Virus record (IMG/VR): IMGVR_UViG_3300017756_003602
Span: 1 to 55,648 of that record
Length of the DNA stretch: 55,648 nt
Strand: one strand, 5' to 3'
Origin: a virus
The position numbers and the translations under genes are program-made. Shown here piece after piece: positions 8,611-35,435 of this stretch. Each line of letters begins with the position of its first letter. Position 1 is the stretch's first letter. Under the pieces are notes generated by a model. That model had not been told where the DNA came from. It did no database searches and saw only the letters and a program-made list of their open reading frames with translations.

Positions 8611-8764
8611 GGTTATTTGCTCCTTTAAGATTCTTTACCAGTCCAACTATTTCAACTTTCCAACCGTTAGGGCGGTTAACGACCATTGCGTGAAGCCCTA
8701 GCATTTTCCACATGCGCTTTTCAGCTAGCGCCTTGTGATACTCTTTGTGAGTCACGAAAATCAC
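8603..8764 (-). CDS. Small basic protein upstream of bet
   Basis: 53 residues with a GTG start in a GTGA overlap with the previous gene and a GGAGG site 7 bases upstream; its stop lies just inside the bet start. The product is basic and helical at first (THKEYHKALAEKRMWKMLG) then beta (AMVVNRPNGWKVEIVG). Coupling to both neighbours and a good ribosome site support it as real. No family recognised. Confidence 0.65.
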   Translation of the reverse strand: MIFVTHKEYHKALAEKRMWKMLGLHAMVVNRPNGWKVEIVGLVKNLKGANNHG

Positions 8765-11771: not shown

Positions 11772-12482
11772 TTAATCCCAGATGCTCGTGTGCCAAAAAA
11801 CCTTTCCGATCACCTTGATTTGCTCTAGTTCTCGACCAAAGTACTTTTCGTCTGGATGCTCGTCACTATTAATGCTATTAATCCGCAAGCCATTACCAGG
11901 TATTCGGTAAAGCCTCTTAACTCTAAGTAAACCATCATGATTTATTGCATAAACTTTTCCATCAACAACTTTTGTATCAAATGTGTTTACGCCAACAACA
12001 TCACCGTCAAACAGTCGCGGCTCCATGCTGTTGCCGGAAACCTTAACGCATGCTGCTGCTTCCGTTTCAACTCCACAGCGTCGAAGTGTTGATTTGGAAA
12101 ATCTAAGTTTAGGCCCTCGCCTTTCTATATTGTATTCGCCACCAATCCCTGCTGCTAATTCTACTTCCATGAAAAAAGGCACCTCTACTTCATCTTCGTC
12201 AAGCGGTGTCGCGCTGTCCCAAGCGTCGATATGCCCATAATATTCCGCATTCTCGTTCACTTGATTCTTTTTACTTTGGTGATGCACACGCGGTAGCAGT
12301 TCGCTATGCACTCCAAGTATGTTAACTATCTCAAAAATATTGTCGCTACTAGGCTTATACTCGTCTTTCTCCCATGCCCTTACAGTCACATGAGATACGC
12401 CAAGCTTTTTGCCAAATTCGCCAGCTGATCTAAAGCCAGCTGCTTTTCGCGCCCGTTCTAAGCAACTTCCAAATGTATCCAT
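11772..12482 (-). CDS. cI: CI-type repressor, HTH plus self-cleaving S24 peptidase domain
   Basis: 236 residues. Residues 5-62 are an XRE/lambda-type HTH (LERARKAAGFRSAGEFGKKL, then GVSHVTVRAWEKDEYKPS). Residues 105-236 are the LexA/CI S24 domain: Ala111-Gly112 is the likely self-cleavage bond (VELAAGIGGEY), S152 in GNSMEP the nucleophile and K189 in LLRVKRLY the general base. It should bind the TAAG-type operators as a dimer, hold PL and PR off, and be cleaved on RecA activation. Start ATG 12482 is preceded by GGTGG; the operator 12501-12512 lies just upstream, fitting autoregulation. Confidence 0.95.
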   Translation of the reverse strand: MDTFGSCLERARKAAGFRSAGEFGKKLGVSHVTVRAWEKDEYKPSSDNIFEIVNILGVHSELLPRVHHQSKKNQVNENAEYYGHIDAWDSATPLDEDEVEVPFFMEVELAAGIGGEYNIERRGPKLRFSKSTLRRCGVETEAAACVKVSGNSMEPRLFDGDVVGVNTFDTKVVDGKVYAINHDGLLRVKRLYRIPGNGLRINSINSDEHPDEKYFGRELEQIKVIGKVFWHTSIWD

Positions 12483-12580: not shown

Positions 12581-12766
12581 GTGAAAAAGAGTGATGCGAT
12601 TGAGCACTTCGGTAGCGCTTCAAAACTCGCTAGCGCAATCAATATAGCGCCCGCAGCAGTATCCCAATGGGGCGAGACTATACCGCTCCTTCGCGCTTAC
12701 CAGCTTGAAAAAATTACGGGCGGCAAGCTCAAAGTTGAAGAAGTCGAACTTAGTAAAGCCAGTTAA
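12581..12766 (+). CDS. cro: Cro repressor, P22-Cro type
   Basis: 61 residues, GTG start with AAGG upstream. The layout matches P22 Cro: DAIEHFGSASKLASAINIAP then AAVSQWGETIPLLRAYQLEK and ITGGKLKV, a five-helix HTH where AAVSQW is the recognition helix. It is the first gene from PR and faces cI across the operators. It should bind the same TAAG operators and favour lytic growth by limiting cI expression. Confidence 0.9.
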   Translation: MKKSDAIEHFGSASKLASAINIAPAAVSQWGETIPLLRAYQLEKITGGKLKVEEVELSKAS

Positions 12767-13858: not shown

Positions 13859-13907
13859 ACGCACACAACCAAAGCCAGCTTTTACACCAACGCGGAGAGC
13901 AGCGTAA
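13830..13907 (+). CDS. 25-residue basic peptide
   Basis: Begins MSKVVPINPKRTQPKPAFTP and ends RRAA; Pro- and Lys/Arg-rich. AGGATAAAGGTC precedes the ATG, and its stop overlaps the next start as TAATG. Coupled position supports translation; too short to assign. Confidence 0.42.
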   Translation: MSKVVPINPKRTQPKPAFTPTRRAA

Positions 13908-14080
13908 TGCGTTCTGAATTTGTGTGGTTTTGTAAGCGTCATTTTCGCAGCTTTGCGCATCAGTTTAAAACCGACTGGCAGTTTCGAGCGGCAACTATTG
14001 TATTAGCGGTTGAGTTAGCAGCTTTGGCCTATTACGCATCTGTCAGTTTTTGGCTGGATGCGTTTATTAGATCAATTTAG
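13907..14080 (+). CDS. 57-residue single-span membrane protein
   Basis: ATG in a TAATG overlap, GGAGAGCAGC upstream. Basic, aromatic N-terminus (FVWFCKRHFRSFAHQFKTDW) and one hydrophobic helix (about 29-50, ATIVLAVELAALAYYASVSF). Last protein gene before the 670-base gene-free segment. Function unknown. Confidence 0.55.
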   Translation: MRSEFVWFCKRHFRSFAHQFKTDWQFRAATIVLAVELAALAYYASVSFWLDAFIRSI

Positions 14081-14705
14081 CAGTAAGCGTTTGATGTTGC
14101 GCTTTAAACGTCCTGAATGTACCGCCTGAGCAATCTTCTTCCGTGTTGCGAGGACATTCAGATAAACGAAGCAGAAGTCATAAGAGTGTTGGGCTACTCG
14201 GACATGGTTAGCGACCTTAGCTAGCGGCGAAAGACAAAGGTGACACTTGGAGAGACAAGGCGTTTTGAGAATGACTGCTAGGGATGTAACGCAAGAAGCG
14301 CCCTAACGGGTAATGAGCTTGGTCAGTGTGGTATCGGTCAGTCATTCATCAAAGCGTTATTGCTGCTGGCTGTGGGCGAATGAGGGTGCCCACTATAAAC
14401 CCCACGGAATTAACCGACAAAGCCATGGGCCAGAGAACGTTCGGATAAGACGAGGCACCGGCAACGCTTTCTAGTATCGGTAACGGTAAGCAATAGGGCT
14501 TATTCATCCGAGTTGGTGCCAAGGTGACGACCATGGCCGCGCCTACTGCGAAAGTGTAGGGCGTTTTGAGAAGGCTTATTAGGTTATCAACGGTACGGCT
14601 TCACATTCACTGAGTGTGATGGGTAATCAATAAGCTTTCTCAAAGCGTTATGCGGATTGCACATTTGCGGTCGGCGCTTTCGACTGGCCCACGTTAAGGG
14701 CTAAA
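14081..14705 (+). ncRNA. Candidate large structured non-coding RNA
   Basis: About 625 bases without a credible gene but dense in helices. Two long modules share arms: CGTTTTGA (14261-14268) with TCAAAGCG (14349-14356), continued inside by AATGACTG/CAGTCATT; and CGTTTTGAGAA (14562-14572) with TTCTCAAAGCG (14637-14647), continued by GCTTATT/AATAAGC. Both arms contain the same T-G pair, which works as U-G only in the plus-strand RNA. Others: CTGAATGT/ACATTCAG (14113/14154), GTTAGC/GCTAGC (14207/14220), TAGGG/CCCTA (14279/14301), GTGGGC/GCCCAC (14372/14388), GCCATGG/CCATGGC (14422/14531), GGCACC/GGTGCC (14454/14515), and CCTAC/GTAGG with an inner C-GAAA-G loop (14542-14560). Lies in the PR transcript. 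Size and phage setting recall GOLLD and ROOL RNAs, but I cannot match a model; ends are approximate. Confidence 0.75.
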
Positions 14706-14711
14706 ACGAAA

Positions 14712-14747
14712 AAACCCCGCATGCCGTGGAAAGCAAATGCGGGGTTT
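14712..14747. terminator. Strong hairpin at the end of the RNA candidate
   Basis: AAACCCCGCAT (14712-14722) pairs with ATGCGGGGTTT (14737-14747) around a 14-base loop. In the plus direction only UUU follows, so termination may be partial. In the minus direction the stem is followed by TTTTTTCGTTTT, a good terminator, so it could stop leftward transcripts before they copy the RNA antisense. It lies 23 bases upstream of the next start codon. Confidence 0.6.
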
Positions 14748-14770
14748 AGATGATAAACATCGAGGTAATT

Positions 14771-15490
14771 ATGATGCAAATCGAAAATATTAACAACTCT
14801 AAATACACAGATTACGCGTTACTGCCATTCAAAAATGTAACTGTTTTTGATAACGCAGAGGAAATGATTCTTGATCACAATGAAAAGGTTTTAGGTGGCT
14901 GGGTTTACGCTCTTTCGAATGAAAGTTTTCCTGACCTCCTAAAAATAGGTATGACAACTATCAGTCCAGTAGAGAGGGCAAGACAATTAGGCTCTTCTGG
15001 AGTTCCAACCCCCTTTAAAGTTGAGTGGTCAGTGCAGGTAAAAGATGCACCCAAAGTGGAGAAACAGATACACGAACACTTCAGCAAGGGGCGAGTAAAT
15101 TCATCTAGAGAATTTTTCAAAATAACGCTAGACGAACTCACTGAATACGTGAGCGAGGAAGTTGATTTCTACCTGTCATCAGGAATGGATGTGTTCTTTC
15201 AGTACCACACTATTCATTTGGATGAAGCGAAAAAAGAAAAGCGAGAGAATTTAAAAATATCCAGCGATCTTTTGGAAAGAATCAATTGCGAAGCTTTTGT
15301 GAAAAATAACACAGCCTTCATAGAAAGCTGCGTAGAGCTTGTCCTTTCCAAGTTCAGGGGAACGTTAATATTCAAAGATGGTGAGGTGAAAGTATCTCCA
15401 GAGCCCGAGTACAGTGGCCACTCAGAGTTTTTAAAGCCCCATCAAAAGCCAGTCCAGATAAGAGTTAAGAACGGTGGTTTTTCACTATGA
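14771..15490 (+). CDS. GIY-YIG superfamily (T5orf172/MUG113-type) protein
   Basis: 239 residues from ATG 14771, with GAGG 6 bases ahead; an ATG at 14750 overlaps the hairpin and has no site. Residues about 35-120 form a T5orf172-type GIY-YIG domain: GWVYALSNES, LLKIGMTTISPVERARQLGS, then the V-E-K-Q-I-H-E-H-F segment and SREFFKI. The C-terminal half is helical and unassigned. The start of the O-like gene overlaps its stop (ATGA). This is the second GIY-YIG protein of the phage. Nuclease activity is plausible but unproven for this subgroup. Confidence 0.78.
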   Translation: MMQIENINNSKYTDYALLPFKNVTVFDNAEEMILDHNEKVLGGWVYALSNESFPDLLKIGMTTISPVERARQLGSSGVPTPFKVEWSVQVKDAPKVEKQIHEHFSKGRVNSSREFFKITLDELTEYVSEEVDFYLSSGMDVFFQYHTIHLDEAKKEKRENLKISSDLLERINCEAFVKNNTAFIESCVELVLSKFRGTLIFKDGEVKVSPEPEYSGHSEFLKPHQKPVQIRVKNGGFSL

Positions 15491-16242
15491 GCGTTAAATT
15501 AATGTGGTCTGCAATGACCGTAAAAGCTGGTAGCCCTACTGCTAAGCTAATCCTTCTAAAGTTGGCAGACAACGCGAACGACAAAGGCGAGTGCTGGCCT
15601 AGTTTAAAAAACATCGCTGAGCATTGTGAAGTATCACAGAAAACGGTTATCACCAATATCAAGAAGCTTGAAGATCTTGGGTATGTCAAAAAAATCAACC
15701 GATTTAATGACAAGGGTAAAACCTCAAATCTATATGTAATTACCATTACTGAAGGTGCACCAGTTGAGGGCAATTCTTCTTCAGAACCATGTGAAAAAAC
15801 TTCAACTACCCATGTGAAAAAACGTAAAGAACCTAGTGAAAAAACTTCAACTACCCCATGTGAAAAATCTTCAACTACCCCATGTGAAAAATCTTCACAT
15901 GAATCTGTCAGTATAGAACCTGTCATTACTGAATCTGTCATTGAAACTATAGAGCGCGAGAAGATGGTTTCTCTTGAAAGCCTGAATGCTTTCGTTAGCT
16001 ACAGAAAAAAAATCAAAAAGCCAATGACTACTCACGCAGTTGAGTTGCTAGTTGCAAAACTAAGCGGTCTTCGTGTTGACGGTCATTCTCCACAAGAGCT
16101 AATCAACGAAGCCATCATGAATGGCTGGCAATCGGTTCACCCTAAAAACAATGCGCAACCTAACCGCACCTTTCAAAGCCATCAAGAACGCATACGCGAA
16201 GAAAACATGCGCGTTATGTCTAACTGGGCAAACAAGGAGTAG
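15487..16242 (+). CDS. O: O-like replication initiator
   Basis: 251 residues. Residues 1-85 are an HTH_36/lambda-O-type winged helix (SPTAKLILLKLADNANDKGE, WPSLKNIAEHCEVSQKTVIT, LEDLGYVKKI). A Thr/Ser/Lys-rich linker (95-140) with repeats of the E-K-(T/S)-S-T-T-P-C type is encoded by DNA iterons, exactly as lambda ori lies within O. The C-terminal part (about 155-235) holds helices likely to contact the helicase loader. Expected to bind the iterons in its own gene and start theta replication. Recognition by architecture and context. Confidence 0.84.
   Translation: MSVKLMWSAMTVKAGSPTAKLILLKLADNANDKGECWPSLKNIAEHCEVSQKTVITNIKKLEDLGYVKKINRFNDKGKTSNLYVITITEGAPVEGNSSSEPCEKTSTTHVKKRKEPSEKTSTTPCEKSSTTPCEKSSHESVSIEPVITESVIETIEREKMVSLESLNAFVSYRKKIKKPMTTHAVELLVAKLSGLRVDGHSPQELINEAIMNGWQSVHPKNNAQPNRTFQSHQERIREENMRVMSNWANKE
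15788..15901 (+). repeat. ori: Replication-origin iterons inside the initiator gene
   Basis: Five tandem units of 22-24 bases, each starting CATGTGAAAAA or a variant: 15788, 15811, 15833 (CTAGTGAAAAAAC, degenerate), 15857 and 15881. The last unit is an inverted repeat, CATGTGAA with TTCACATG around five bases. An A/T-rich composition and location in the middle of the initiator gene copy the lambda ori plan. Expected initiator-binding sites and melting region. Confidence 0.78.
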
Positions 16243-24732: not shown

Positions 24733-26711
24733 TGCTGGTAGTTAAAAACGCGGAACAGCTACAAAGAGAAGATGAAGCAGCGAAGAACGCTAAGATTGAA
24801 GCTGAACGCGAAGCAACACAGCCACGCATTGTAGATAACTTAGCCGCGCACGTTCACAAATGCTGGACTACAGCGAAAAGTCACAAGGTTGATATTGCTG
24901 ACAGGCTTACTAATTGCCTACGCAGACGCAAAGGCGAGTACAGCCCTCAAAAACTGTCAGATATTAGAAAGCAAGGCGGCAGTGAAATATACATGAACCT
25001 CACCGGCACAAAGATTCATGCTGCAAAAGCATGGTTAAGTGACTTGTTTGCGTCCAGTAATGACCGTCCTTTTCACATCGAAGCAACGCCAGTACCTGAA
25101 TTGCCACCAGAAATTGCACAGAGCATGATTTCTATTGCCATTCAAAACGCAATGATGACCGCAGGAAGCCAACAAGAAGTCATGGCGATGACTGAGCAAG
25201 TTCTAAAGCAGCATGAAGAGCGCATTAAATCGGAGATAAACGAAGAAGCTGAAGCGCGTATGGAAAAGATGGCCGAGTATATCGAAGATATGATGGTCGA
25301 AGGTGATTTCCGTGGCGAGTTCGATGCGTTCTTAGATGACTTGGTAACGTACCCGTTTGCAATTCTAAAGGGCCCGATTTATCGCAAGCAGAAGCGTGTT
25401 AAATGGGTGCAGGATAAACAGACCGGCAGACACGTACCAAAGATAGAAGATAAACTTGTTCGTAAATTTAGACGCGTAAGCCCGTTTGACTTCTATCCTT
25501 CGCCATCTACAACCAATATCGGTGACCACTGGCATATTGAACACGTGCGCTTCACGCCTTCAACACTCGCATCAATGCGAGGCTCTAAAGGCTACAACAG
25601 CCAGAACATTGCCATGGCATTGAACGACCATCGTTTAGGCTTACGTCAGTGGGTATTTGAAGACTCAGAGCGTGAGCGCCTAGAAGGTAAGCGCAACTTC
25701 AATCATCATCAGTATGAAAACATCGATGGCCTAGAGTTCACTGGATGGATTCAGGGTAAGCAATTGATCGAATGGGGCATTGAACAACAGATTACCGACC
25801 CTTACGCAGAATACCCAGTAACTGTAGTGGTTGTGGGTAACTACACCATCAAGGCATCGGTTAACCCTGACCCTAACGGCAAGCCTGGTTATTACAAATC
25901 GACTTTCCGCAGCATACCTAACTCTTTTTGTGGTGAAGCACTAGCCGAAATCATTGAAGACATTCAAGACGCGGCAAATGCGACCATGCGAGCGCTTATC
26001 AACAACATGGCAATTGGTGCACAACCACAAGTTTCCATCGATTTAGCGCAGATACCGCAGGGCGCGAACATAACCAGCATTTACCCAGGGAAGATTTGGC
26101 AGTTTAGCAGCAAAGGCGTAAACGGCGCAGGGCAAAGCAAGCCTGGTATCAACTTCTTTAGTCCTGAAATCAAAGCCAATGAATTGCTTAGTGTGTACGA
26201 GAAGTTTGAACGCTACGCCGATGATAAAAGTGGTATTCCTGCTTATGCGTATGGTTCAGACCAAGCAGCTGGCGCAGGCAAAACCGCCTCTGGTTTATCT
26301 ATGCTGATGAACGCAGCCAGTAAATCTATGAAAGAAGTGGTGCGATCGGTAGATATTCACGTGATTGAGCCGCTTGTTTCTAACCTCTACACAAGCGCCA
26401 TGATTGACCCTGATGTACCTGAAGACATTAAAGGCGATGCGCAAGTTAAAGCACGTGGCTCTGATGCACTGATGCACAAAGAGGCCACCGCAATGCGACA
26501 AGCTGAGTTCCTTGCTACGACTAACAACCCAACTGACATGCAAATCATTGGTCCTGAAGGTCGCAGGGTATTACTTGAAAGTGCAGCCAAAGCCGCCGAC
26601 TTACCTGCAGCGCGTTTCGTTCCTACTGAAGACGAGCTTAGACAAAAGCTAATGCAAGAAATGGCAGCCGTTCAGCAGCAGGCGGCAGCACAAGGGCAGG
26701 TGCCGCAATGA
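24732..26711 (+). CDS. Portal protein, podovirus type
   Basis: 659 residues from ATG 24732 (AGGAGG 9 bases ahead, TAATG overlap with terL); a TTG 9 bases earlier is unlikely. The N-terminal 200 residues are helical and acidic; the core (about 230-500) has PFDFYPSPSTTNIGDHWHIE, YYKSTFRSIPNSFCGEALAE and IIEDIQDAANATMRALINNM, typical of large portals of short-tailed phages, and SGIPAYAYGSDQAAGAGKTA with the A-S-G-L-S-M-L motif. The Gln-rich tail (640-659) is a barrel-like end. Forms the dodecameric DNA entry ring. Confidence 0.85.
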   Translation: MLVVKNAEQLQREDEAAKNAKIEAEREATQPRIVDNLAAHVHKCWTTAKSHKVDIADRLTNCLRRRKGEYSPQKLSDIRKQGGSEIYMNLTGTKIHAAKAWLSDLFASSNDRPFHIEATPVPELPPEIAQSMISIAIQNAMMTAGSQQEVMAMTEQVLKQHEERIKSEINEEAEARMEKMAEYIEDMMVEGDFRGEFDAFLDDLVTYPFAILKGPIYRKQKRVKWVQDKQTGRHVPKIEDKLVRKFRRVSPFDFYPSPSTTNIGDHWHIEHVRFTPSTLASMRGSKGYNSQNIAMALNDHRLGLRQWVFEDSERERLEGKRNFNHHQYENIDGLEFTGWIQGKQLIEWGIEQQITDPYAEYPVTVVVVGNYTIKASVNPDPNGKPGYYKSTFRSIPNSFCGEALAEIIEDIQDAANATMRALINNMAIGAQPQVSIDLAQIPQGANITSIYPGKIWQFSSKGVNGAGQSKPGINFFSPEIKANELLSVYEKFERYADDKSGIPAYAYGSDQAAGAGKTASGLSMLMNAASKSMKEVVRSVDIHVIEPLVSNLYTSAMIDPDVPEDIKGDAQVKARGSDALMHKEATAMRQAEFLATTNNPTDMQIIGPEGRRVLLESAAKAADLPAARFVPTEDELRQKLMQEMAAVQQQAAAQGQVPQ

Positions 26712-26950
26712 TAACCAATCTAACGGTACCGCAATTAAAGTCGCTTATTTATTTAAAGAACGTTCACACAGAGCACTACAACAACATTCAAGACATTATC
26801 ACTATGTTGGTAGAGCAGAACGTTGAAGCGCTAAAAAGCGCAGTGAACACACAAGAAATGTTTAAAAGCCAAGGCGCTATTTACACATTAGAAGAATTAT
26901 TGGAATTACTCGAAGACCCGAAGACCACACTGGCTCGGATTGAACAGTAA
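26708..26950 (+). CDS. Small helical protein downstream of portal
   Basis: 80 residues, ATGA overlap with portal. Helical throughout (LKSLIYLKNVHTEHYNNIQD, LVEQNVEALKSAVNTQEMFK, YTLEELLELLEDPKTTLARI). Followed by a terminator. May assist head assembly by position; not recognised. Confidence 0.65.
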   Translation: MITNLTVPQLKSLIYLKNVHTEHYNNIQDIITMLVEQNVEALKSAVNTQEMFKSQGAIYTLEELLELLEDPKTTLARIEQ

Positions 26951-26980
26951 TACCAACCACGCCTTAACGGGCAAATCATA

Positions 26981-27006
26981 AGGTCGCTATCCAGCGGCCT
27001 TTTTTT
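26981..27006 (+). terminator. Terminator after the portal module
   Basis: AGGTCGCT pairs with AGCGGCCT (one T-G) around ATCC, followed by six or more T. It likely trims expression before the highly expressed scaffold and coat genes. Confidence 0.78.
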
Positions 27007-27083
27007 ATACCTAAACGAAAGTGAACACCAGTGGGAATACCGCAAGGCTCCCGAAGATACTGACTCACCGAGGATAAGACACA

Positions 27084-28073
27084 ATGGCTTTACCACAGGC
27101 ACTGCAAGACGCAAATGAAAGAGCAAACGAGCTAATTCGCAAGCAAAGCGAAGGTCAATCAACTCCCGAAAATGGGAACACTGAGAAACCCATCACGCAG
27201 CCGCAAGCGCAAGAGCAGCAGAAACCACAAGAGGCCAGAACACCCGAGCCGCCGCAACAGCAGCAGCAATCGGACTCTGAGCAAACGTGGGAGCATAAAT
27301 ATCGAGTATTGCAAGGCAAGTACAACGCCGACACCAAAAAGCTTAATGAGCAGCTTCAAGAGGCTCAAAAGCGCAGCCAAGACCCAAGCTTGCAACACCG
27401 TTTACAGGCCTTAGAGTCTGAAAACTCGCAACTGAAGCAACAATTAGAGCAACAGCAACAGGCGAGCCAATCAAGCGGCGAATTAAAGCTTAATCAAAAA
27501 TTGGTTGACGAGTACGGCGAAGACTTCGCGCAAGCAGTAGCAGAGCAGTCAAGTGCGGGAACAAGTGAGCTAATCAATCGATTAACTCAGCAGATCAACA
27601 CGCTTCAATCAAAGTTAGAGCGAACTGAGCAAACCACCTCAGAAACCGCAGGCAACATGCGTATGCGTGAGTTAAATGCAGAGTTGAGTAAGCACAACAT
27701 TGATTTTGAGCAGGTCAATACTGATCCAATGTTCCATGACTGGCTATCTGCCATCGATGACGCAAGCGGCGAGCAACGCAATACGCTGATGAATAACGCG
27801 TTCCAGCGAGGCGATATCAATCGCACCGCATACTTTTTCAAAGCCTTTAAAGCCCAAGAGGGTTCCAACTTCAATAACAACCCATTATCAAGCCATGTTG
27901 ATGTAACCAGCCGCGCACCGAGTGACGCCGCAGGGGATGACAACGTATGGACCAAAGCGCAGATGGATAAGCTATATGCTGACAGACGCGCTGGCAAATT
28001 GACTGATGCAGAGTTTCAGAAGTGGGAGCAACAACTATTTTCCGCGATGCAACAAGGTACATACCTCGGCTAG
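27084..28073 (+). CDS. Scaffolding-like coiled-coil protein
   Basis: 329 residues. N-terminal Gln/Pro/Glu low complexity (about 25-65), a long heptad region (about 70-200: YRVLQGKYNADTKKLNEQLQ, LQALESENSQLKQQLEQQQQ) and a C-terminal part with WTKAQMDKLYADRRAGKLTD that would hold the coat-contacting end. Position directly before the coat gene and coiled-coil nature fit a scaffold that is removed after prohead assembly. Call is from context and composition. Confidence 0.75.
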   Translation: MALPQALQDANERANELIRKQSEGQSTPENGNTEKPITQPQAQEQQKPQEARTPEPPQQQQQSDSEQTWEHKYRVLQGKYNADTKKLNEQLQEAQKRSQDPSLQHRLQALESENSQLKQQLEQQQQASQSSGELKLNQKLVDEYGEDFAQAVAEQSSAGTSELINRLTQQINTLQSKLERTEQTTSETAGNMRMRELNAELSKHNIDFEQVNTDPMFHDWLSAIDDASGEQRNTLMNNAFQRGDINRTAYFFKAFKAQEGSNFNNNPLSSHVDVTSRAPSDAAGDDNVWTKAQMDKLYADRRAGKLTDAEFQKWEQQLFSAMQQGTYLG

Positions 28074-28095
28074 CGGTTTTTTGGAGTAATTAAAA

Positions 28096-29028
28096 ATGGG
28101 TTATCCTGTAGCAAGTGGCGCAGTCAACTATTCAAACACTGGCGCTAACAACAACTCTAGCTTTATCCCTGAAATTTGGTCTACGAAGTTACTGACCAAG
28201 TATTACGAAAACTGTGTTTACATGGAAATTGCAAACACTGACTACGAAGGTGAAATCAAATCGCATGGTGACAAGGTTCAAATCCGCACCATTCCTGATA
28301 TCACTATCAACGACTATGAGAAAGGTCAAGACCTGAACTACGAGCAGCCAGAAAGTGCGCCTGTGTCGTTAACTATCGACCAAGGCCACTATTTCGCGTT
28401 CAAAGTAAACAGCGTTGATAAGTACCAAGCAGATATCAATCTGATGGATACGTTCTCACAAGATGGCGGCATGAAAATGAAACGCCGTGTTGATGCTAAC
28501 GTATTGGGCTCTATCTACGCCGGTGCTGCGGCGGTAAATGCTGGCGCAAACGCGGGTAAAGATTCAGGCTCATTGAACTTGGGTACCGCAGCTGCGCCTA
28601 TTGACGTTACAAAAGACAATATCATTGACGTGCTTGTTGAGCGCTTTGGTGTATGTCTTGATGAAACGGACACGCCAGATGAAGACCGTTACGTGGTTCT
28701 TCCTCCTTCAATGTGTGCACGCATCAAAACGTCAGAACTGAAAGACGCGAGCTTAACCGGTGACGGTAACTCTACTCTTCGCTCGGGCAAAATCGGCATG
28801 ATTGACCGTCTTCACATTTACTCTTCACGTAACTTGAACGTTACTAGTGGCGCGTATGATGTGTTGTTTGGTCACAAGTCAGCGCTATCGTTTGCCGCAC
28901 AAATCACTGAAATGGAAAAACTAAAGAACCCGAAAGATTTCGGTGACTTGGTTCGTTCACTGTTTGTGTACGGTTTTGATGTGTTGCTACCTGAGCAACT
29001 TGGTCACAGTGTAATGCGCCTGGGTTAA
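28096..29028 (+). CDS. Major capsid protein
   Basis: 310 residues. Pattern FIPEIWSTKLLTKYYENCVY, GDKVQIRTIPDITINDYEKG, LTIDQGHYFAFKVNSVDKYQ, the spine-like MKMKRRVDANVLGSIYAGAA, and RYVVLPPSMCARIKTSELKD with GKIGMIDRLHIYSSRNL is that of HK97-fold coat proteins of P22-like and other short-tailed phages. It forms the icosahedral shell around the scaffold. AGTAATTAAAA upstream is a weak site; the gene is followed by a strong terminator. Confidence 0.9.
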   Translation: MGYPVASGAVNYSNTGANNNSSFIPEIWSTKLLTKYYENCVYMEIANTDYEGEIKSHGDKVQIRTIPDITINDYEKGQDLNYEQPESAPVSLTIDQGHYFAFKVNSVDKYQADINLMDTFSQDGGMKMKRRVDANVLGSIYAGAAAVNAGANAGKDSGSLNLGTAAAPIDVTKDNIIDVLVERFGVCLDETDTPDEDRYVVLPPSMCARIKTSELKDASLTGDGNSTLRSGKIGMIDRLHIYSSRNLNVTSGAYDVLFGHKSALSFAAQITEMEKLKNPKDFGDLVRSLFVYGFDVLLPEQLGHSVMRLG

Positions 29029-29054
29029 TTCCCGCGCATAACGTAAACCCTTTC

Positions 29055-29077
29055 GCCCCCTTAATTGGGGGCTTTTT
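29055..29077 (+). terminator. Terminator after the coat gene
   Basis: GCCCCC pairs with GGGGGC around TTAATT and is followed by five T. It would limit read-through from the highly expressed coat gene into adaptor and tail genes. Confidence 0.85.
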
Positions 29078-29096
29078 CGTTTAAGGAGCCTAGAAA

Positions 29097-29318
29097 ATGG
29101 CACAAGCAAAACCAACGACTGAAGGCGCAGTAGATTTACAAGACAACGCTACCGCTGAAGCACCTGATTATCTTCAAGCTAAATCTGGTCGTGTCTTCAA
29201 AGCAACACCTTACCTTGTGAAGCAGTGGCGCAAAGGCAAGTTCGGCATGATCAAGGCCACTAAAAAAGACTACGACGATGCTGTAAAAGCTGAAGCCGCT
29301 AAAGCCAAAGAAGCGTAA
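29097..29318 (+). CDS. Small head protein, function unknown
   Basis: 73 residues, AAGGAGCC before the ATG. Ala/Lys-rich; a central motif YLQAKSGRVFKATPYLVKQW followed by a Lys/Ala-rich helical tail. Similar short proteins sit after coat genes in many podoviruses, sometimes as head decoration or completion proteins. No confident family. Confidence 0.65.
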   Translation: MAQAKPTTEGAVDLQDNATAEAPDYLQAKSGRVFKATPYLVKQWRKGKFGMIKATKKDYDDAVKAEAAKAKEA

Positions 29319-29333
29319 GAGCGAGGTTCACCA

Positions 29334-29984
29334 ATGGCAACACGTAAAGTTATTGATGCAATTGCGCAAGTGCGAGCAACGCTTGTAGATAATACAAGTA
29401 CACGCTGGCCTAATCCTGAACTACTAAACGCCTATAACAATGCTGTATTGGCAGTGGTGAACCTTCGTCCTGATGCTAGCACTAAGAACGTTGCGTTCAC
29501 GCTGGTAGCAGGCGAGTCAAAGCAAACCTTGCCTAGTGATGGTCTTCGCTGGATGGACGTTGTTTACGATGTAAATTCAGGCCAGCCGATTAGAAGCACT
29601 AAGCGCCGCATATTGGACGATCAAATACCTAATTGGCACAACACGCCAGGTGATCGCGTAGCAAGTTGGGCATTTGATGAGCGCGACCCGAAGACAATTT
29701 ATGTTTACCCTCAACCGTCACAGGCTAAGGATATTCAGATTGTTTACTCGGTAGCACCACAAGCGGTCAATATTACTGATTTTGAGAACGACACCACCAC
29801 TATCAGTATTGATGATTGCTATTTCAATGCAATCAAAGAGTACATGCTTTATTCAGCTTACTCGAAAGATGCAGATTACGCAGCTAACGCACAACGCGCA
29901 GCCTCGCATTACAGCATTTTCGAGCGTGCACTAGGTAATAAATCTGGTGTAGATAAAGCGGCTAACCCTGAAGAGCGCATGTAA
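29334..29984 (+). CDS. Head-tail adaptor protein
   Basis: 216 residues. Helical N-terminus (KVIDAIAQVRATLVDNTSTR WPN order) with ELLNAYNNAVLAVVNLRPDA, then a beta domain (ESKQTLPSDGLRWMDVVYDV, RVASWAFDERDPKTIYVYPQ) and a C-terminal helical part (DDCYFNAIKEYMLYSAYSKD, YAANAQRAASHYSIFERALG). This is the recognised layout of podovirus adaptor (gp4/gp6-like) proteins that form a ring under the portal. Confidence 0.75.
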   Translation: MATRKVIDAIAQVRATLVDNTSTRWPNPELLNAYNNAVLAVVNLRPDASTKNVAFTLVAGESKQTLPSDGLRWMDVVYDVNSGQPIRSTKRRILDDQIPNWHNTPGDRVASWAFDERDPKTIYVYPQPSQAKDIQIVYSVAPQAVNITDFENDTTTISIDDCYFNAIKEYMLYSAYSKDADYAANAQRAASHYSIFERALGNKSGVDKAANPEERM

Positions 29985-30596
29985 ATGGTAACTTTTGATA
30001 GCTTATCCACGCTTGTAGCGCCTTACACACCCAATGTGCCAGCGTTCACAGCGGCTAATGCTATCCGCGAGGCAGCACGTGACTTTTTACGTCACGTGTT
30101 TGCCTATCAGCGCGAGATAGAGATTTGTGTAATTGAAGGCGAAGCGAAGTACAAAATAGAGCCGTATGACGCACACACCGAAGTTGTATCGATACTTGAA
30201 GTAAAGCGCTGTGATAGTGATGTGCTTACGCAGATGCAAAAAGACAATCGCGACACATACAGCGGCAAGCCTAGTCACTACATCGGCACCTTTGATCGCA
30301 CAATCAAACTCTTTCCCGTTCCTAATAAAGATGAAGAGTTAACGGTAACCATTGCGGTTCGTCCAACCTTTCAAGCGCCCATTATTGATAGAGCAGTGTT
30401 TGACGATAACGCTGAAGCTTTTCGATGGGGAGCGCTAGCTATTCTCAAAAAACACCCTGGCACTGAATGGTTTTCACCTGAAGAAGTGCCGTATTACGAA
30501 AACCTCTTCCTTGAAGCGAAAAACAAGAAAGCTGAAGAAATCAGACTTGGCAACATGCCTAACAACATGAAACTGGAAATTCCTAGCTTCCTATGA
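29985..30596 (+). CDS. Tail-adaptor / tubular-like structural protein
   Basis: 203 residues starting one base after the previous stop. Opens with a helix (AFTAANAIREAARDFLRHVF), then beta segments (EICVIEGEAKYKIEPYDAHT, RTIKLFPVPNKDEELTVTIA) and a C-terminal helix (YENLFLEAKNKKAEEIRLGN). The IREAARDF and E-G-x-x-x-Y-x-I-x-P pattern is common in proteins that join the adaptor ring to the tail. Specific role uncertain. Confidence 0.72.
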   Translation: MVTFDSLSTLVAPYTPNVPAFTAANAIREAARDFLRHVFAYQREIEICVIEGEAKYKIEPYDAHTEVVSILEVKRCDSDVLTQMQKDNRDTYSGKPSHYIGTFDRTIKLFPVPNKDEELTVTIAVRPTFQAPIIDRAVFDDNAEAFRWGALAILKKHPGTEWFSPEEVPYYENLFLEAKNKKAEEIRLGNMPNNMKLEIPSFL

Positions 30597-32545
30597 CCGG
30601 CATTTATAAAACTGGCACGATAACACTCAACAGTAATTCAAACATCGTGACAGGTAATGGCACGCTCTTTCAAAGCGTTGCCAATGCGCGTTTGGGTGAT
30701 TTGTTTTCGCTTGACGGTAAAGAGTTCTTTGAAATTTACCAAGTCGATACCGAAACGCAGCTACGCATTAGAAACTTGGTTACTGGTGCTAAGTATCAAG
30801 GCCAAAGCGTTGCCTCCGTTAGCTATGCTATAGTGCGAAACTTTGCAGCCTCAACCGATGCGCAAATAGCTTCTGATGTTGTCAGTCTTCAGCAACGATG
30901 GCACGAACGCGAAAGAGAAATGACAGAGTGGTTTGCTTCTGATGCAAATTACCACCAAATCACCGACATTCGCGGCGATAAGGTATTAGTCATTACGCCA
31001 ACCGGTCTTAATAACCTAGTTGATGGCCCTGTTAATATTGAAGACTTTGGCTTCCCAGTTGCCAAAGAAAGCCAAGCGCTAGACCTAAATGACTTTCCTG
31101 CAGGCATTTTCTATACTCGCCCATTATCAATTGCTCACCAGCCCCCTGGCTTTGGCTCTGGCATAAAGCTTGTTATCACCAATAAAAGTGAAGCGATTTT
31201 CTATCAGAAAATCATTGAGCTTAGTACGTCAAAAGTTCGCTATCGTATTGCCACTACAGCCGCCAATGCTGAGTTATGGAACACGCTAGGTAGCGAGGAT
31301 GGAGGAAGCGCACAAGTAACATGGAATGACATTCAGGGTGACATTCCAGCCACTGCTACAAGATGGCCTAGCTTCCAAGAGGTGACTGGCGATGTAGCGC
31401 AAATACTTCCAGATACTGCAAAGCGGTGGCCTTCATTCAGTGAGGTAAGTGGTGACATAAACAGCTTGCTTGCTGATTTTGCTAAACGTTGGCCGAGCTT
31501 TGAGGAAGTGACCGGCGATATTTTGGCTGTATTGCCAGAGACCGCTAAACGATGGCCTAACTTTCAAGAGGTGGCCGGATCTTTGGAAGTTGAACAGCTG
31601 CCAGAAGCCATAACACGAGATAAGAAGTCTCTATCACTTAGCCCACCTATAAAACGCGAGCCGAGTATTAGTCAAATACTGACTGACTACCCTACTTTGA
31701 AAAGCACCGAGGTAAGGCCTACAGCTTCACCAAACAACAGACGCATGATTCAGTTTGATGACGTGCGCGGCGAGGTTCATGTAGCACTGACAGATAGATG
31801 GTTCACTATTCCTACCACTATTGCCAGTCGGTCGTTCCCAATTTTTTATCGTGGTTTGATACTGCGCTTCAATAATAACAGTTCGTACACCGGCAATATC
31901 AAAATGCGTGTCTACCCGATGGGAACGGGCGGTTTAGGGTTGCCCAACAACCCCACGCTGGCTAATCACCAATGGCATGAGTACGAAACCAGCGTAACGA
32001 ACCTTTATAAAATTGGTGAGTTCAACAGCGAGTACTTCGAGGGAATCATTGAGTACATCGAACTAGATAGCGGATGGCACAAGTTCGATGTAAACCAGTC
32101 TGATGTTGGCTCATTAAACGCCAAGTTTGATACTGCATTTGGCACTTTGCGTTCACCCTTCAGAGCGTTCTATCAAAAGGCTGATGGCTATTGGTACAGC
32201 GAAGATATGTTCCCCGATACGCTTGATGAGATTGGTCCAAGCTGGGCGCAGGATGCCAGCAACCCTCGCAAATTTACTGTTACTGACGCTACGAGCGGCA
32301 GTGATGCTCTCAGGTTCTTTAGTGACTCCTACGACGATTTTCAATTTGAAGTAGTGTTAGTCGCTGAATATCTCAACAACACACTAGCTCTGACTGTTTC
32401 AAATCGTGACCCAAACCGAATGTACTACGCAGGTTCTGGAAGGTTCATTACTGACGAACGCATCTATTTTAAACGCGCTGGTTCAAAAGTGACTGGTGCT
32501 ATCACTGTTGAGTCAATAAAAATGAGAATCCCGCACTATGGATAG
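30593..32545 (+). CDS. Tail fibre / spike protein with 21-residue repeats
   Basis: 650 residues, ATGA overlap. The N-terminal domain (1-80) resembles head- or baseplate-binding domains of phage fibres (GTITLNSNSNIVTGNGTLFQ). A helical linker with LQQRWHEREREMTEWF follows. Residues 257-340 hold four 21-residue repeats of the RWPSFQEVTGDVAQILPDTA type starting at 257, 278, 299 and 320, probably a trimeric stalk. The C-terminal half is beta-rich and may be receptor-binding. Function by architecture. Confidence 0.72.
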   Translation: MTGIYKTGTITLNSNSNIVTGNGTLFQSVANARLGDLFSLDGKEFFEIYQVDTETQLRIRNLVTGAKYQGQSVASVSYAIVRNFAASTDAQIASDVVSLQQRWHEREREMTEWFASDANYHQITDIRGDKVLVITPTGLNNLVDGPVNIEDFGFPVAKESQALDLNDFPAGIFYTRPLSIAHQPPGFGSGIKLVITNKSEAIFYQKIIELSTSKVRYRIATTAANAELWNTLGSEDGGSAQVTWNDIQGDIPATATRWPSFQEVTGDVAQILPDTAKRWPSFSEVSGDINSLLADFAKRWPSFEEVTGDILAVLPETAKRWPNFQEVAGSLEVEQLPEAITRDKKSLSLSPPIKREPSISQILTDYPTLKSTEVRPTASPNNRRMIQFDDVRGEVHVALTDRWFTIPTTIASRSFPIFYRGLILRFNNNSSYTGNIKMRVYPMGTGGLGLPNNPTLANHQWHEYETSVTNLYKIGEFNSEYFEGIIEYIELDSGWHKFDVNQSDVGSLNAKFDTAFGTLRSPFRAFYQKADGYWYSEDMFPDTLDEIGPSWAQDASNPRKFTVTDATSGSDALRFFSDSYDDFQFEVVLVAEYLNNTLALTVSNRDPNRMYYAGSGRFITDERIYFKRAGSKVTGAITVESIKMRIPHYG

Positions 32546-35435
32546 GCTCTTTGATATCAATTTATCTTCAGCCAATGGCTGGACTGACGGGCAAGAGTGG
32601 GCAGAGTGCAACCCAGCGCAAGAGCTTGAGTCGATTTACAGACGTGTATTTTCTACAAGTGAAGAAGATAACCCCGACTATCGAATTGACCCCGGTGATA
32701 ATTTCTTTATTGCTTCCGCTTCTAATAATGTACGTGACTGGACGCCGAGAACATTGCCGTGGACATTTGACATTCCAAAAGGGCGAGATGGGAATCCACT
32801 ATCATTCTACTTTGGTCTTCAAGTGGGTGAGCGTGAGATTGACGAAAATTTATTTAATCACAGCCCATTCATGCAAAAAGTGTCAGGTGACTTTATCGTG
32901 CTTGGCGCTAACTACCACCGATTTTACGGTTTAAAAGTCAAAGACTCCGATCCTGTATTAAAGCTCAGTAAAGATAACCGAGGCGGCGAGGTGCATGGCG
33001 CATTGCTCATCAATACGCCGCTCATCAACACGCAGGGCTACGCTATGTTTGATTGGATATTACGCAAGCTCACGTTCATTAACACGTTTTTCAAAGCACT
33101 CGATATCCCTTTTAGCTCTAGCAAGGTGTCAACTCAAGACTTTGAAATAAGCGGAAAGGGCGATATTGGTATTGTGATTCGTGCTGGTCACTCCGAAATG
33201 GAAGTGATAGGCGGCACAATTACTAATGAAAACCATGAGTTCAGTGAAAATGAAACGTTACTGCACGGTTTAGAGTTAGAGCAAGGCGATAACGCCGTTG
33301 TGCGCTATGTGGAAACCAAAGGCTTTAGTGGCAACGGGTTCAAGTTCGGCTGTGAAGTCGATGTAAAGGGGCTTATTTCAGACCATGATGGCGCTGGTAT
33401 TGAGTTCTTGGAAGAGTCTACCGCGCGTGACTGCATGGTTAGCTGGACGCGGCAGTTGGCTGGACAGAGCTTTGCTTATTACTTCCATAAAGATGGTGAA
33501 CTGAATAACTGCGGTTGCAACCTAGATGAGACAGGCGGGTTAGGTGTAGTTGTTATTGGCCCCAATGCCACTGTAACCATTAACGGTGGAGATTATCGCG
33601 CGCACTTGCCGTTACCGTTTCTATCGGCTCTTGGAGCCTGTACCGTGAGGCTTAACAACGTAACGCTAAATGGGGTTCTATACAACGAAACAATTGAGCT
33701 TACAGAAGGCGAGTCTTGGCGTGGCGTTAAAGCTACTGTGACACCCAATGTTATACCCGTATACGCGAACAAAGCACTTTCTCTCCCGTACATGCATATT
33801 CCTGCGATGGCTGATGCGATTGCAGTGCAAGGATCAGAACGCCCGTTTGAAAATGTGATCACGCTTCCTAGTGGGGCAAGAATAGCTCCCACGCCTGATG
33901 GGTCACTGCGTTACATTCCAGCTGAAGCGTGGCTGCATTTAGACCCGGGTGAAATAGGTACTGATTATTTCAGGTATTCAACTGAAACACTTATCTACAT
34001 GCATACTTTTGAAATACTGCCTTCGCCTGAAGTTGGTGCGAAAGTTGTGCAGCCTGATGGTTTTAGCGGTTCGGGATGGTCTAAGAGTGGTGGCAATTAC
34101 TACGCGAATGGTACAAGCAATCCACTAACGGCAAACTACAACTTTGAAGCCGATGAAGTTTACCAAGTATCACTAAAGCTAGTAGATAAGCTTAGTGGCT
34201 CGGTCACCCCTAAAATCGGTAGCGAATTAGGCCAATATAGCCACAGCATTGAAGGAACAGAGGTATGGCTTATCCGTGCGCCAGCCAATGCAACACAGGT
34301 TCAAATTACGGCTAGTGGCTACAAAGGCAACGTTCAGAATATCTATGTGCGTAAGCTCCTAAGAACGGAAACACCAGCAGTGCCTACCCTTGCTGGCTCA
34401 GTTTCTGGAGCGACAGTTGACTTGCATTGGAAGCTACCGCCAGTAGATAGACTTAAATTTCGGTATACCGCAGACATCCACGTCCAAAACCAGCAACTTG
34501 ATCATGATGCGCAATCAGGCTACTACCGCAAAGACGCCTCAAAACGTTACTTGTTTGAAAACGTTTGGTCGGAAGGTAAACGTAAAGGCATAAGCCTCTA
34601 CGGTTCAGTGTCTGTTGAAGTCGATGGTTTTAAATGCACTGGTGGCTATGTAGGCCAAAGTGATACATGGCAAGTCGGCATACAGGTAGATTTATACAAC
34701 CCTTACGCCCAAATTCAGCAACTCGGCAACCTCAGCATCGACTTAGGCCTAGAAAGTAACTTTGCGAACTATCAGGCGCAATTCGGTAATTCTGACCCAA
34801 TCGTGGTGAACGGCGCTTACTCGGGCGAAGAAAGCTACTTGTATAGCGCCCATATCTACAATGCTGATTTGCGTAATGGCTCAGACGCTGTAACCGACCT
34901 TAAGAAAAACACGGAGGTTAACAACGCGTATTACCAAGGTGCCTGCAAGATGGTCAGAACACATAAGCATGGTAAAGCGTTAATGGCTAACATTGCGTTT
35001 TCTCAGTCCTACGGCACGCGCGAAGTATTCTCTGTGCAGCATAGCCCTGCAATTATTGAAATATGGAACTGCAGTATTGATGGCATACGCTGCGTCAATG
35101 TGCCTCAACTCGATAATCAGAAAAAAGATAATAGTTACTTCTATGAAGGTCGTGGAACGCTACAAGGGAAAAGAGGCGCTATCGAAGTGCTAAAAACCTA
35201 CCCGACTCTTGACGACCTTAACCGTTTTGCAATGACAGACATGGAGTTTCAATACAAAAGCTCAGGCGGTGCTAGCTGGTACGGTTTGAACTTCCCTGAT
35301 GTTGAACTTCCTGGTGTCATCGGAGCTTTTAAACGTTCATTTTCACTTTCTTCAGGCACATACCAGATCAGATGCCGTTGTTACAACGGTGCGCTTGTTG
35401 GCGCTTGGTCTAACACAATTTCAATTACAGTATAG
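32538..35435 (+). CDS. Beta-helix tailspike, possible polysaccharide-degrading
   Basis: 965 residues. After about 130 N-terminal residues (no clear head-binding match) come repeated right-handed beta-helix style turns: GDIGIVIRAGHSEMEVIGGT, GLELEQGDNAVVRYVETKGF, GNGFKFGCEVDVKGLISDHD, GAGIEFLEESTARDCMVSW, and VVIGPNATVTINGGDY. A jelly-roll-like region (about 490-610) follows, then a second helix-like stretch and a C-terminal Fn3/beta part. This is the plan of phage spikes that bind or cut capsule or O-antigen. Enzymatic residues cannot be named. Confidence 0.75.
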   Translation: MDRLFDINLSSANGWTDGQEWAECNPAQELESIYRRVFSTSEEDNPDYRIDPGDNFFIASASNNVRDWTPRTLPWTFDIPKGRDGNPLSFYFGLQVGEREIDENLFNHSPFMQKVSGDFIVLGANYHRFYGLKVKDSDPVLKLSKDNRGGEVHGALLINTPLINTQGYAMFDWILRKLTFINTFFKALDIPFSSSKVSTQDFEISGKGDIGIVIRAGHSEMEVIGGTITNENHEFSENETLLHGLELEQGDNAVVRYVETKGFSGNGFKFGCEVDVKGLISDHDGAGIEFLEESTARDCMVSWTRQLAGQSFAYYFHKDGELNNCGCNLDETGGLGVVVIGPNATVTINGGDYRAHLPLPFLSALGACTVRLNNVTLNGVLYNETIELTEGESWRGVKATVTPNVIPVYANKALSLPYMHIPAMADAIAVQGSERPFENVITLPSGARIAPTPDGSLRYIPAEAWLHLDPGEIGTDYFRYSTETLIYMHTFEILPSPEVGAKVVQPDGFSGSGWSKSGGNYYANGTSNPLTANYNFEADEVYQVSLKLVDKLSGSVTPKIGSELGQYSHSIEGTEVWLIRAPANATQVQITASGYKGNVQNIYVRKLLRTETPAVPTLAGSVSGATVDLHWKLPPVDRLKFRYTADIHVQNQQLDHDAQSGYYRKDASKRYLFENVWSEGKRKGISLYGSVSVEVDGFKCTGGYVGQSDTWQVGIQVDLYNPYAQIQQLGNLSIDLGLESNFANYQAQFGNSDPIVVNGAYSGEESYLYSAHIYNADLRNGSDAVTDLKKNTEVNNAYYQGACKMVRTHKHGKALMANIAFSQSYGTREVFSVQHSPAIIEIWNCSIDGIRCVNVPQLDNQKKDNSYFYEGRGTLQGKRGAIEVLKTYPTLDDLNRFAMTDMEFQYKSSGGASWYGLNFPDVELPGVIGAFKRSFSLSSGTYQIRCRCYNGALVGAWSNTISITV

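Follow-up and report, generated by a model that had tools for sequence, protein, structure and literature searches.

Positions 14086-14747 of the window (the whole 55,648-nt stretch of viral DNA analysed, IMG/VR record IMGVR_UViG_3300017756_003602) almost certainly specify, to judge from pairing and folding, a conserved structured RNA of the plus strand. Moreover, comparison of its relatives shows the predicted RNA to be a mosaic of exchangeable domains in a fixed order: a head (head A), cassettes and middle modules, a tail and a final hairpin (Table 1). The original prediction had assigned 14081-14705, in the early rightward operon, to a large structured phage RNA; both the plus-strand RNA and the operon setting are borne out, the conserved unit being slightly wider (~14086-14747, with a further small hairpin beyond it). 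It had not anticipated the mosaic of cassettes, the ORFs between modules, the widespread motif in head A (M1) or the tmRNA-tag modules of relatives. The phage is of the Alteromonas type, and the RNA sits between repressor-control and replication genes: those for a CI-like repressor and a P22-Cro-type protein lie on one side, and that for an O-like initiator lies downstream. Our preferred reading, to which we give a probability of roughly 0.4, is that this would be a modular non-coding RNA of the PR early operon, carrying swappable recognition hairpins and acting in trans on host factors.

Table 1. Positions in the window of the RNA domains and of the flanking genes
Feature	Position	Strand	Remarks
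CI-like repressor	11772-12482	minus	upstream side of the RNA
P22-Cro-type protein	12581-12763		upstream side of the RNA
Head A	14086-14259	plus	constant 5' structured domain; alignment and covariance model
Head A hairpins	14086-14103; 14113-14161 (inner 14130-14149); 14184-14199; 14207-14225; 14246-14259	plus	
M1	14214-14259	plus	within head A; ACCU (14214-14217) ... AGGU (14238-14241)-GACA-CUUG-GAGAGA-CAAG
Cassette 1	14261-14356	plus	96-nt hairpin closed by CGUUUUGA/UCAAAGCG
Middle module D	14357-14471	plus	ends with CGCUUU (14465-14470)
Middle module E	14472-14560	plus	found also in relatives
Cassette 2	14562-14647	plus	86-nt hairpin
Tail I	14648-14708	plus	hairpin GAUUGCA/UGCGGUC (14655-14672); CGCUUU (14675-14680); hairpin GCCC/GGGC (14687-14701)
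Final hairpin	14709-14747		AAACCCCGCAT/ATGCGGGGTTT; A-run before the stem; UUU only on the plus side
Small hairpin	14749-14761	plus	GAUG/CAUC; immediately followed by the Shine-Dalgarno GAGG of the downstream gene
ORF with T5orf172/MUG113 domain	14750-15490	plus	Pfam T5orf172, 8.3e-16; between the RNA and the initiator
O-like replication initiator	15487-16242		downstream of the RNA

A blastn search identified one named phage with the RNA, Alteromonas phage P24, and ~30 related IMG/VR contigs were gathered by protein search and pattern scans, as were two metagenome-assembled genomes of gammaproteobacteria, one from Thalassotalea. In complete arrays the RNA lies on one strand, with head A first, as it is in every array holding it, and the hairpin AACCCCGC..GCGGGGTTT last. 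The interior varies through cassettes, the middle modules D and E, the alternative domains B and C, and tails F, G, H, I or J, and the length of the array ranges from ~0.3 to 1.4 kb among relatives. Module D is common to P24, L004, L006, L010, L018 and L030, and module E to L004, L006, L007, L010, L012, L018 and L023, while tails F, G and H stand elsewhere in place of tail I. By inspection, the first hairpin of tail I occurs in relatives as the compensatory variants GATTGGG/CCTGGTC, GATTGAG/CTCAGTC and GGTTGCA/TGCGGCC.

The stretch has a minimum free energy of -255.6 kcal/mol, whereas dinucleotide shuffles average -212.3 (sd 7.8; z -5.5); by strand, the folding energies are -233.9 kcal/mol for plus and -169.9 kcal/mol for minus. 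It was initially described as lacking a good gene, and we agree: its longest stop-free run in the window is 55 codons, and a 113-aa ORF of P24 is not kept in relatives, where it has stops, frameshifts and mostly non-synonymous changes. A protein-coding reading was accordingly rejected; the P24 protein itself (QIV64695.1; L001 1033-1371, annotated as hypothetical) overlaps the structured RNA and very probably does not represent a gene. The original prediction had named an absence of homologues with compensatory changes, or the presence of translated ORFs, as grounds for abandoning it; in our computational checks such homologues were found, and translated ORFs were not. The RNA does not keep the ORF with the T5orf172 domain as its neighbour: other genes stand downstream of it in P24 and in other relatives.

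For head A, an alignment of 16 distinct sequences with 30 pairs has 97.3% of its cells paired and two-sided changes at 12 pairs; the covariation score is 0.303, compared with 0.139 when shuffled and at most 0.079 when slid. The corresponding covariance model (R1) recovers the domain in the loci that hold it and, when run on 399 genomes of the family to which the Thalassotalea genome belongs, it found a strongly diverged full-length copy (E 2.8e-6) in a prophage-like region; the same RNA parts are present in this distant prophage relative. A match in L041 (E 0.08), within a gene region, looks like chance and was discarded.

The two modules with shared arms had been located exactly, at 14261-14356 and 14562-14647: both are closed by CGTTTTGA/TCAAAGCG, both contain the T-G pair ascribed to them and TTAT directly follows each. 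The early observations that GTTAGC pairs with GCTAGC (14207-14225) and that 14401-14460 holds 34 G/C are likewise correct. Over all loci the cassette pattern gave 31 matches with 22 distinct arms, of which 93.4% of positions are paired, against 56.3% with the 3' arms permuted, the set including two apparent chance matches that slightly lower the paired percentage. The cassettes contain 21 G.U pairs and 2 A.C; in 22 of 22, the plus strand is more stable than the minus strand. Therefore, the structure belongs to plus-strand RNA. Cassettes are also found in different company: cassette 1 occurs after other modules in other phages, whereas cassette 2, with few changes, is the first cassette of L009 (a diverged form is first in L006) and follows head C in L022 and L026. 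Indeed, the same cassette can be first in one phage and second in another.

The strand that closes the cassettes, AAAGCG, pairs upstream with CGUUUUGA through a helix with one U.G pair that is kept in nearly all cassettes, and it has an alternative partner, a downstream CGCUUU-type sequence present in 21 of 25 contexts (shuffled mean 3.0, maximum 9). In the window, the CGCUUU of module D is complementary to the AAAGCG of cassette 1 (14351-14356) and competes with the basal helix, while in L014 the second helix is reduced to AAAGC-GUGA-GCUUU with a GNRA loop. Since AAAGCG can pair in either direction, the arrangement suggests an ordered refolding of this region during transcription.

Head A terminates at its 3' end in GGUGACACUUGGAGAGACAAG, an instance of a motif, M1, with the form GUGACA-NNN-GGAGAGAC-NNN. 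When viral contigs were scanned for GTGACA-NNN-GGAGAGAC-NNN-AC, it was found in at least 120 IMG/VR stretches. By scripted counts rather than a covariance model, the NNN triplets complement each other in 115 of the 119 M1 matches listed, with 13 stem types (~5% expected by chance), and an upstream ACNNN/NNNGU helix is present in 63 of the 104 non-redundant copies listed, with 23 pair types, against 10.5 (sd 3.2) in shuffled sequences. In other phages M1 precedes tRNAs and ordinary genes, in places as tandem copies; examples are a site before the holin gene of Morganella phage IME1369_02 and one following the capsid gene of Stenotrophomonas phage phiSHP3. M1 proved to be rare in bacterial chromosomes when genomes were scanned for the pattern (1 of 369 and 1 of 399). 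No Rfam family matches M1 at the sites of the loci scanned, and in open-access papers we found no description of the motif or of a phage structured or decoy RNA of this kind.

The original prediction had left open whether the RNA was a member of GOLLD or ROOL or represented a new class, and it is the latter that stands. There was no Rfam 15 match in the whole window at gathering level or in 13900-14900 at E values up to 10, other than weak minus-strand matches at the final hairpin (isrJ, scoring 21.7 bits where the cut-off is 37), and 13 relatives gave no match to the GOLLD or ROOL models at gathering level. Membership was therefore rejected, and the RNA with its M1 is a new modular class outside the Rfam 15 families; GOLLD and ROOL come closest to it in type, though neither in sequence nor in structure. 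These, too, are large structured phage RNAs with an unknown cellular role, and GOLLD is an RNA-only multimeric cage induced during lysis that frequently, if not universally, adjoins tRNA genes or has tRNAs in its variable region. Both form nanocages and are often found near tRNA islands (PMC12286853). Unlike them, the RNA of the window is a mosaic with exchangeable hairpins, located in the PR operon before replication genes, and some of its relatives carry ORFs between the modules.

Sequences resembling the modules that follow M1 in enteric phages are found in 132 phage records. Such modules are present in N4-like phage IME11, in Shigella phage DS8, in Klebsiella phage SopranoGao and in Acinetobacter phages, where they adjoin tRNA-Arg. 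Prophages of Klebsiella and Escherichia coli have related modules in the early left operon, immediately behind the repressor gene, and the modules of a P1-like phage-plasmid adjoin tRNAs and a Tad2 gene. The window has no tRNA, and proximity to tRNAs is confined to these distant relatives sharing modules. The link between the Alteromonas and enteric arrays, which draws on M1, on a tag module and on the presence of both in L040, is firm for the M1 motif and suggestive for the whole RNA.

The tag module is a reading frame of the tmRNA type, starting ANDD, in head B of the Alteromonas phages and in L040, DS8 and IME11. A tmRNA combines a tRNA-like domain with a tag reading frame; the RNA of the window has neither, the tag frame being confined to head B of relatives, and ARAGORN found no tmRNA in the window or in the relatives tried. 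The Rfam tmRNA_permuted model scores 33.1 bits for IME11, 27.3 for DS8 and 23.1 for L040, all below its cut-off of 47. Tag-frame sites lie in L030 (head B, ~8640-8750, minus strand), L034 (~100-140), L040 (1261-1300, minus strand), L054 (~2186-2220) and L055 (~2203-2236), and the tags ANDDIYLAAVA, ANDDLMMEAAA and ANDDVVLMAA occur in phages and a prophage without a recognizable tRNA-like domain.

As regards function, we propose that the RNA would be transcribed together with the PR early operon, with head A and its M1 serving as a common scaffold or leader. The cassettes, which keep one basal helix and change their distal arms completely, would present swappable recognition surfaces and would move between phages and between positions by recombination at short conserved borders; the alternative helices of AAAGCG would impose an order on refolding as transcription proceeds. 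Early in infection, such an RNA would bind or occupy host RNA-binding or RNA-cleaving factors in trans, resulting in counter-defence or in disturbance of the control of host translation. We consider action in trans, and not only as a leader, somewhat more likely than not; counter-defence in particular is a tentative suggestion. Trans action on host factors is suggested by the swapping of cassettes, by independence from the neighbouring gene and by the company that the RNA keeps, namely, small ORFs, tRNAs, tmRNA-like tags and, in one relative rather than in the window, the anti-defence gene Tad2. Moreover, the RNA persists although different genes follow it, and this speaks against its being the regulator of any single gene. 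A broader proposal, which we hold to be rather doubtful, is of a phage-wide RNA system in which M1 marks mosaic RNAs and the exchanged cassettes (hairpins, tmRNA-tag modules, neighbouring tRNAs and small ORFs) would form an evolvable recognition surface deployed early in infection against host RNA-based or translation-targeting defences, in the manner of gene-cassette exchange; within this proposal, M1 could itself represent a novel element of RNA catalysis or processing.

The main rival, which we think possible though on balance unlikely, is a role in cis: head A and M1 would constitute an early-operon leader that acts on RNA processing, on stability or, by put-like processive antitermination, on transcription, letting the polymerase or the transcript through the terminators and untranslated stretches ahead of the replication genes. 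Because M1 alone is often found just upstream of ordinary genes or tRNAs in other phages, a cis-acting leader or processing element fits this motif at least as well as trans action does. The RNA is, in addition, always upstream of early genes and on their strand, in several relatives an intrinsic terminator shape comes after head A within the operon, and the placement of the Klebsiella and E. coli prophage modules behind the repressor gene is also as expected of a leader. The put RNA of HK022 lies close behind PL/PR, suppresses terminators through the zinc-binding domain of RNA polymerase and is an RNA domain comparably positioned early in lambdoid-type early operons. However, it is ~70 nt long with two stem-loops (PMC9378689), as against 0.3-1.4 kb here, and the HK022 early region (26500-34500, including putR) has no M1. 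Nor would a plain leader need exchangeable cassettes and up to ~1.4 kb of RNA; the genes downstream differ among phages, and in the P24-type phages a terminator shape immediately precedes head A. The trans and cis roles may also coexist, with M1 as the common 5' element and the cassettes as the effector part.

The remaining explanations concern the nature of the structure itself. An RNA-only particle that self-assembles as GOLLD and ROOL do, with the cassettes as variable arms, would accord with the size class, the phage origin and the relatives near tRNAs, and the mutually exclusive pairing of AAAGCG with CGUUUUGA or CGCUUU could take place between molecules; we nevertheless regard it as improbable, as there is no match to either family and a closed cage fits poorly with an RNA whose length varies several-fold between phages. 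We are similarly sceptical that M1 and its upstream helix form a self-cleaving ribozyme that would trim phage RNA, tRNAs and mRNAs, although the compact conserved unpaired core (GACA, GAGAGA), the covarying helices, the spread of M1 among phages and its placement before tRNAs and ORFs, with tandem copies, could all be so explained. The HDV-like theta ribozymes, small conserved phage RNA elements near tRNAs as M1 is, have a conserved core and an arrangement other than those of M1. They are used beside tRNAs by other phages (PMC10879173). At the M1 sites scanned, Rfam gave no match to the hammerhead, twister, pistol, hatchet or HDV-like ribozymes, and no cleavage site is indicated. Finally, an array functioning as DNA, either integron-like or as a recombination hot spot with the inverted repeats acting at that level, would account for exchange at short conserved borders; it is very improbable and was already disfavoured, given that G.U pairs are conserved, one strand folds much better, and both order and orientation are fixed.

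Whichever role applies, M1 is found in many unrelated phages with textbook compensatory change and yet lies outside every Rfam 15 family; it is a defined RNA motif that can be tested in laboratory phages. The arrays provide a natural example of an RNA evolving through swaps of structured cassettes in a fixed scaffold. They are also a candidate explanation for unannotated gaps in phage genomes, such as the ~2.1 kb in N4-like Escherichia phage IME11 (L055 1369-3453), which contains shared modules and two tRNAs, and the ~1.1 kb with modules in the P1-like phage-plasmid of E. coli CH468 (L050 2548-3808). In the latter, the modules are followed by an annotated tRNA-Met of 129 nt that resembles a tRNA with an insertion, and then by Tad2 and late activator genes.

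Several minor features accompany the arrays. Some relatives have small ORFs or an intrinsic terminator shape ('term+') in their arrays: a 59-aa ORF between modules in L003, L011, L019, L028 and L032 matches PHROG 1761/5120, of unknown function, a 109-aa ORF in L022, L030 and L031 has a start resembling that of a secreted protein, and a 46-aa ORF lies between RNA modules in L027 and L033. The 59-aa ORF was considered as an anti-CBASS protein (Acb2-type), an assignment rejected in view of no significant match in Pfam, NCBIfam or PDB. The terminator shape directly before head A in the P24-type phages (GGCTACG..GTAGCCGTTTTTT) was seen in L001 and L019. In Acinetobacter phage vB_AbaSI_2 (L051 1687-1734), a hammerhead-like core (CUGAUGAG..CGAAAC..GGUC) with a sub-threshold score of 22.5 bits to Rfam HH9 lies upstream of the tRNA-Arg and a shared hairpin.

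At the 3' edge of the RNA, the final hairpin has the shape of a leftward (minus-strand) terminator, with A5-A7 ahead of the stem in 26 of 26 distinct copies. This leftward shape (14709-14796, minus strand) is conserved in all relatives, and a promoter-like match at 14796-14768 would allow a short OOP-like RNA, promoter matches here being no commoner than chance. The resemblance to lambda OOP RNA and tO lies in a leftward terminator shape between a cII-type region and an O-type gene; unlike in lambda, the main feature is on the other strand, and a leftward transcript here is a guess. The stem before the Shine-Dalgarno sequence differs by phage and stays complementary, as GAAC/GTTC, GTAG/CTAC, GAAG/CTTC or GTTAA/TTAAC.
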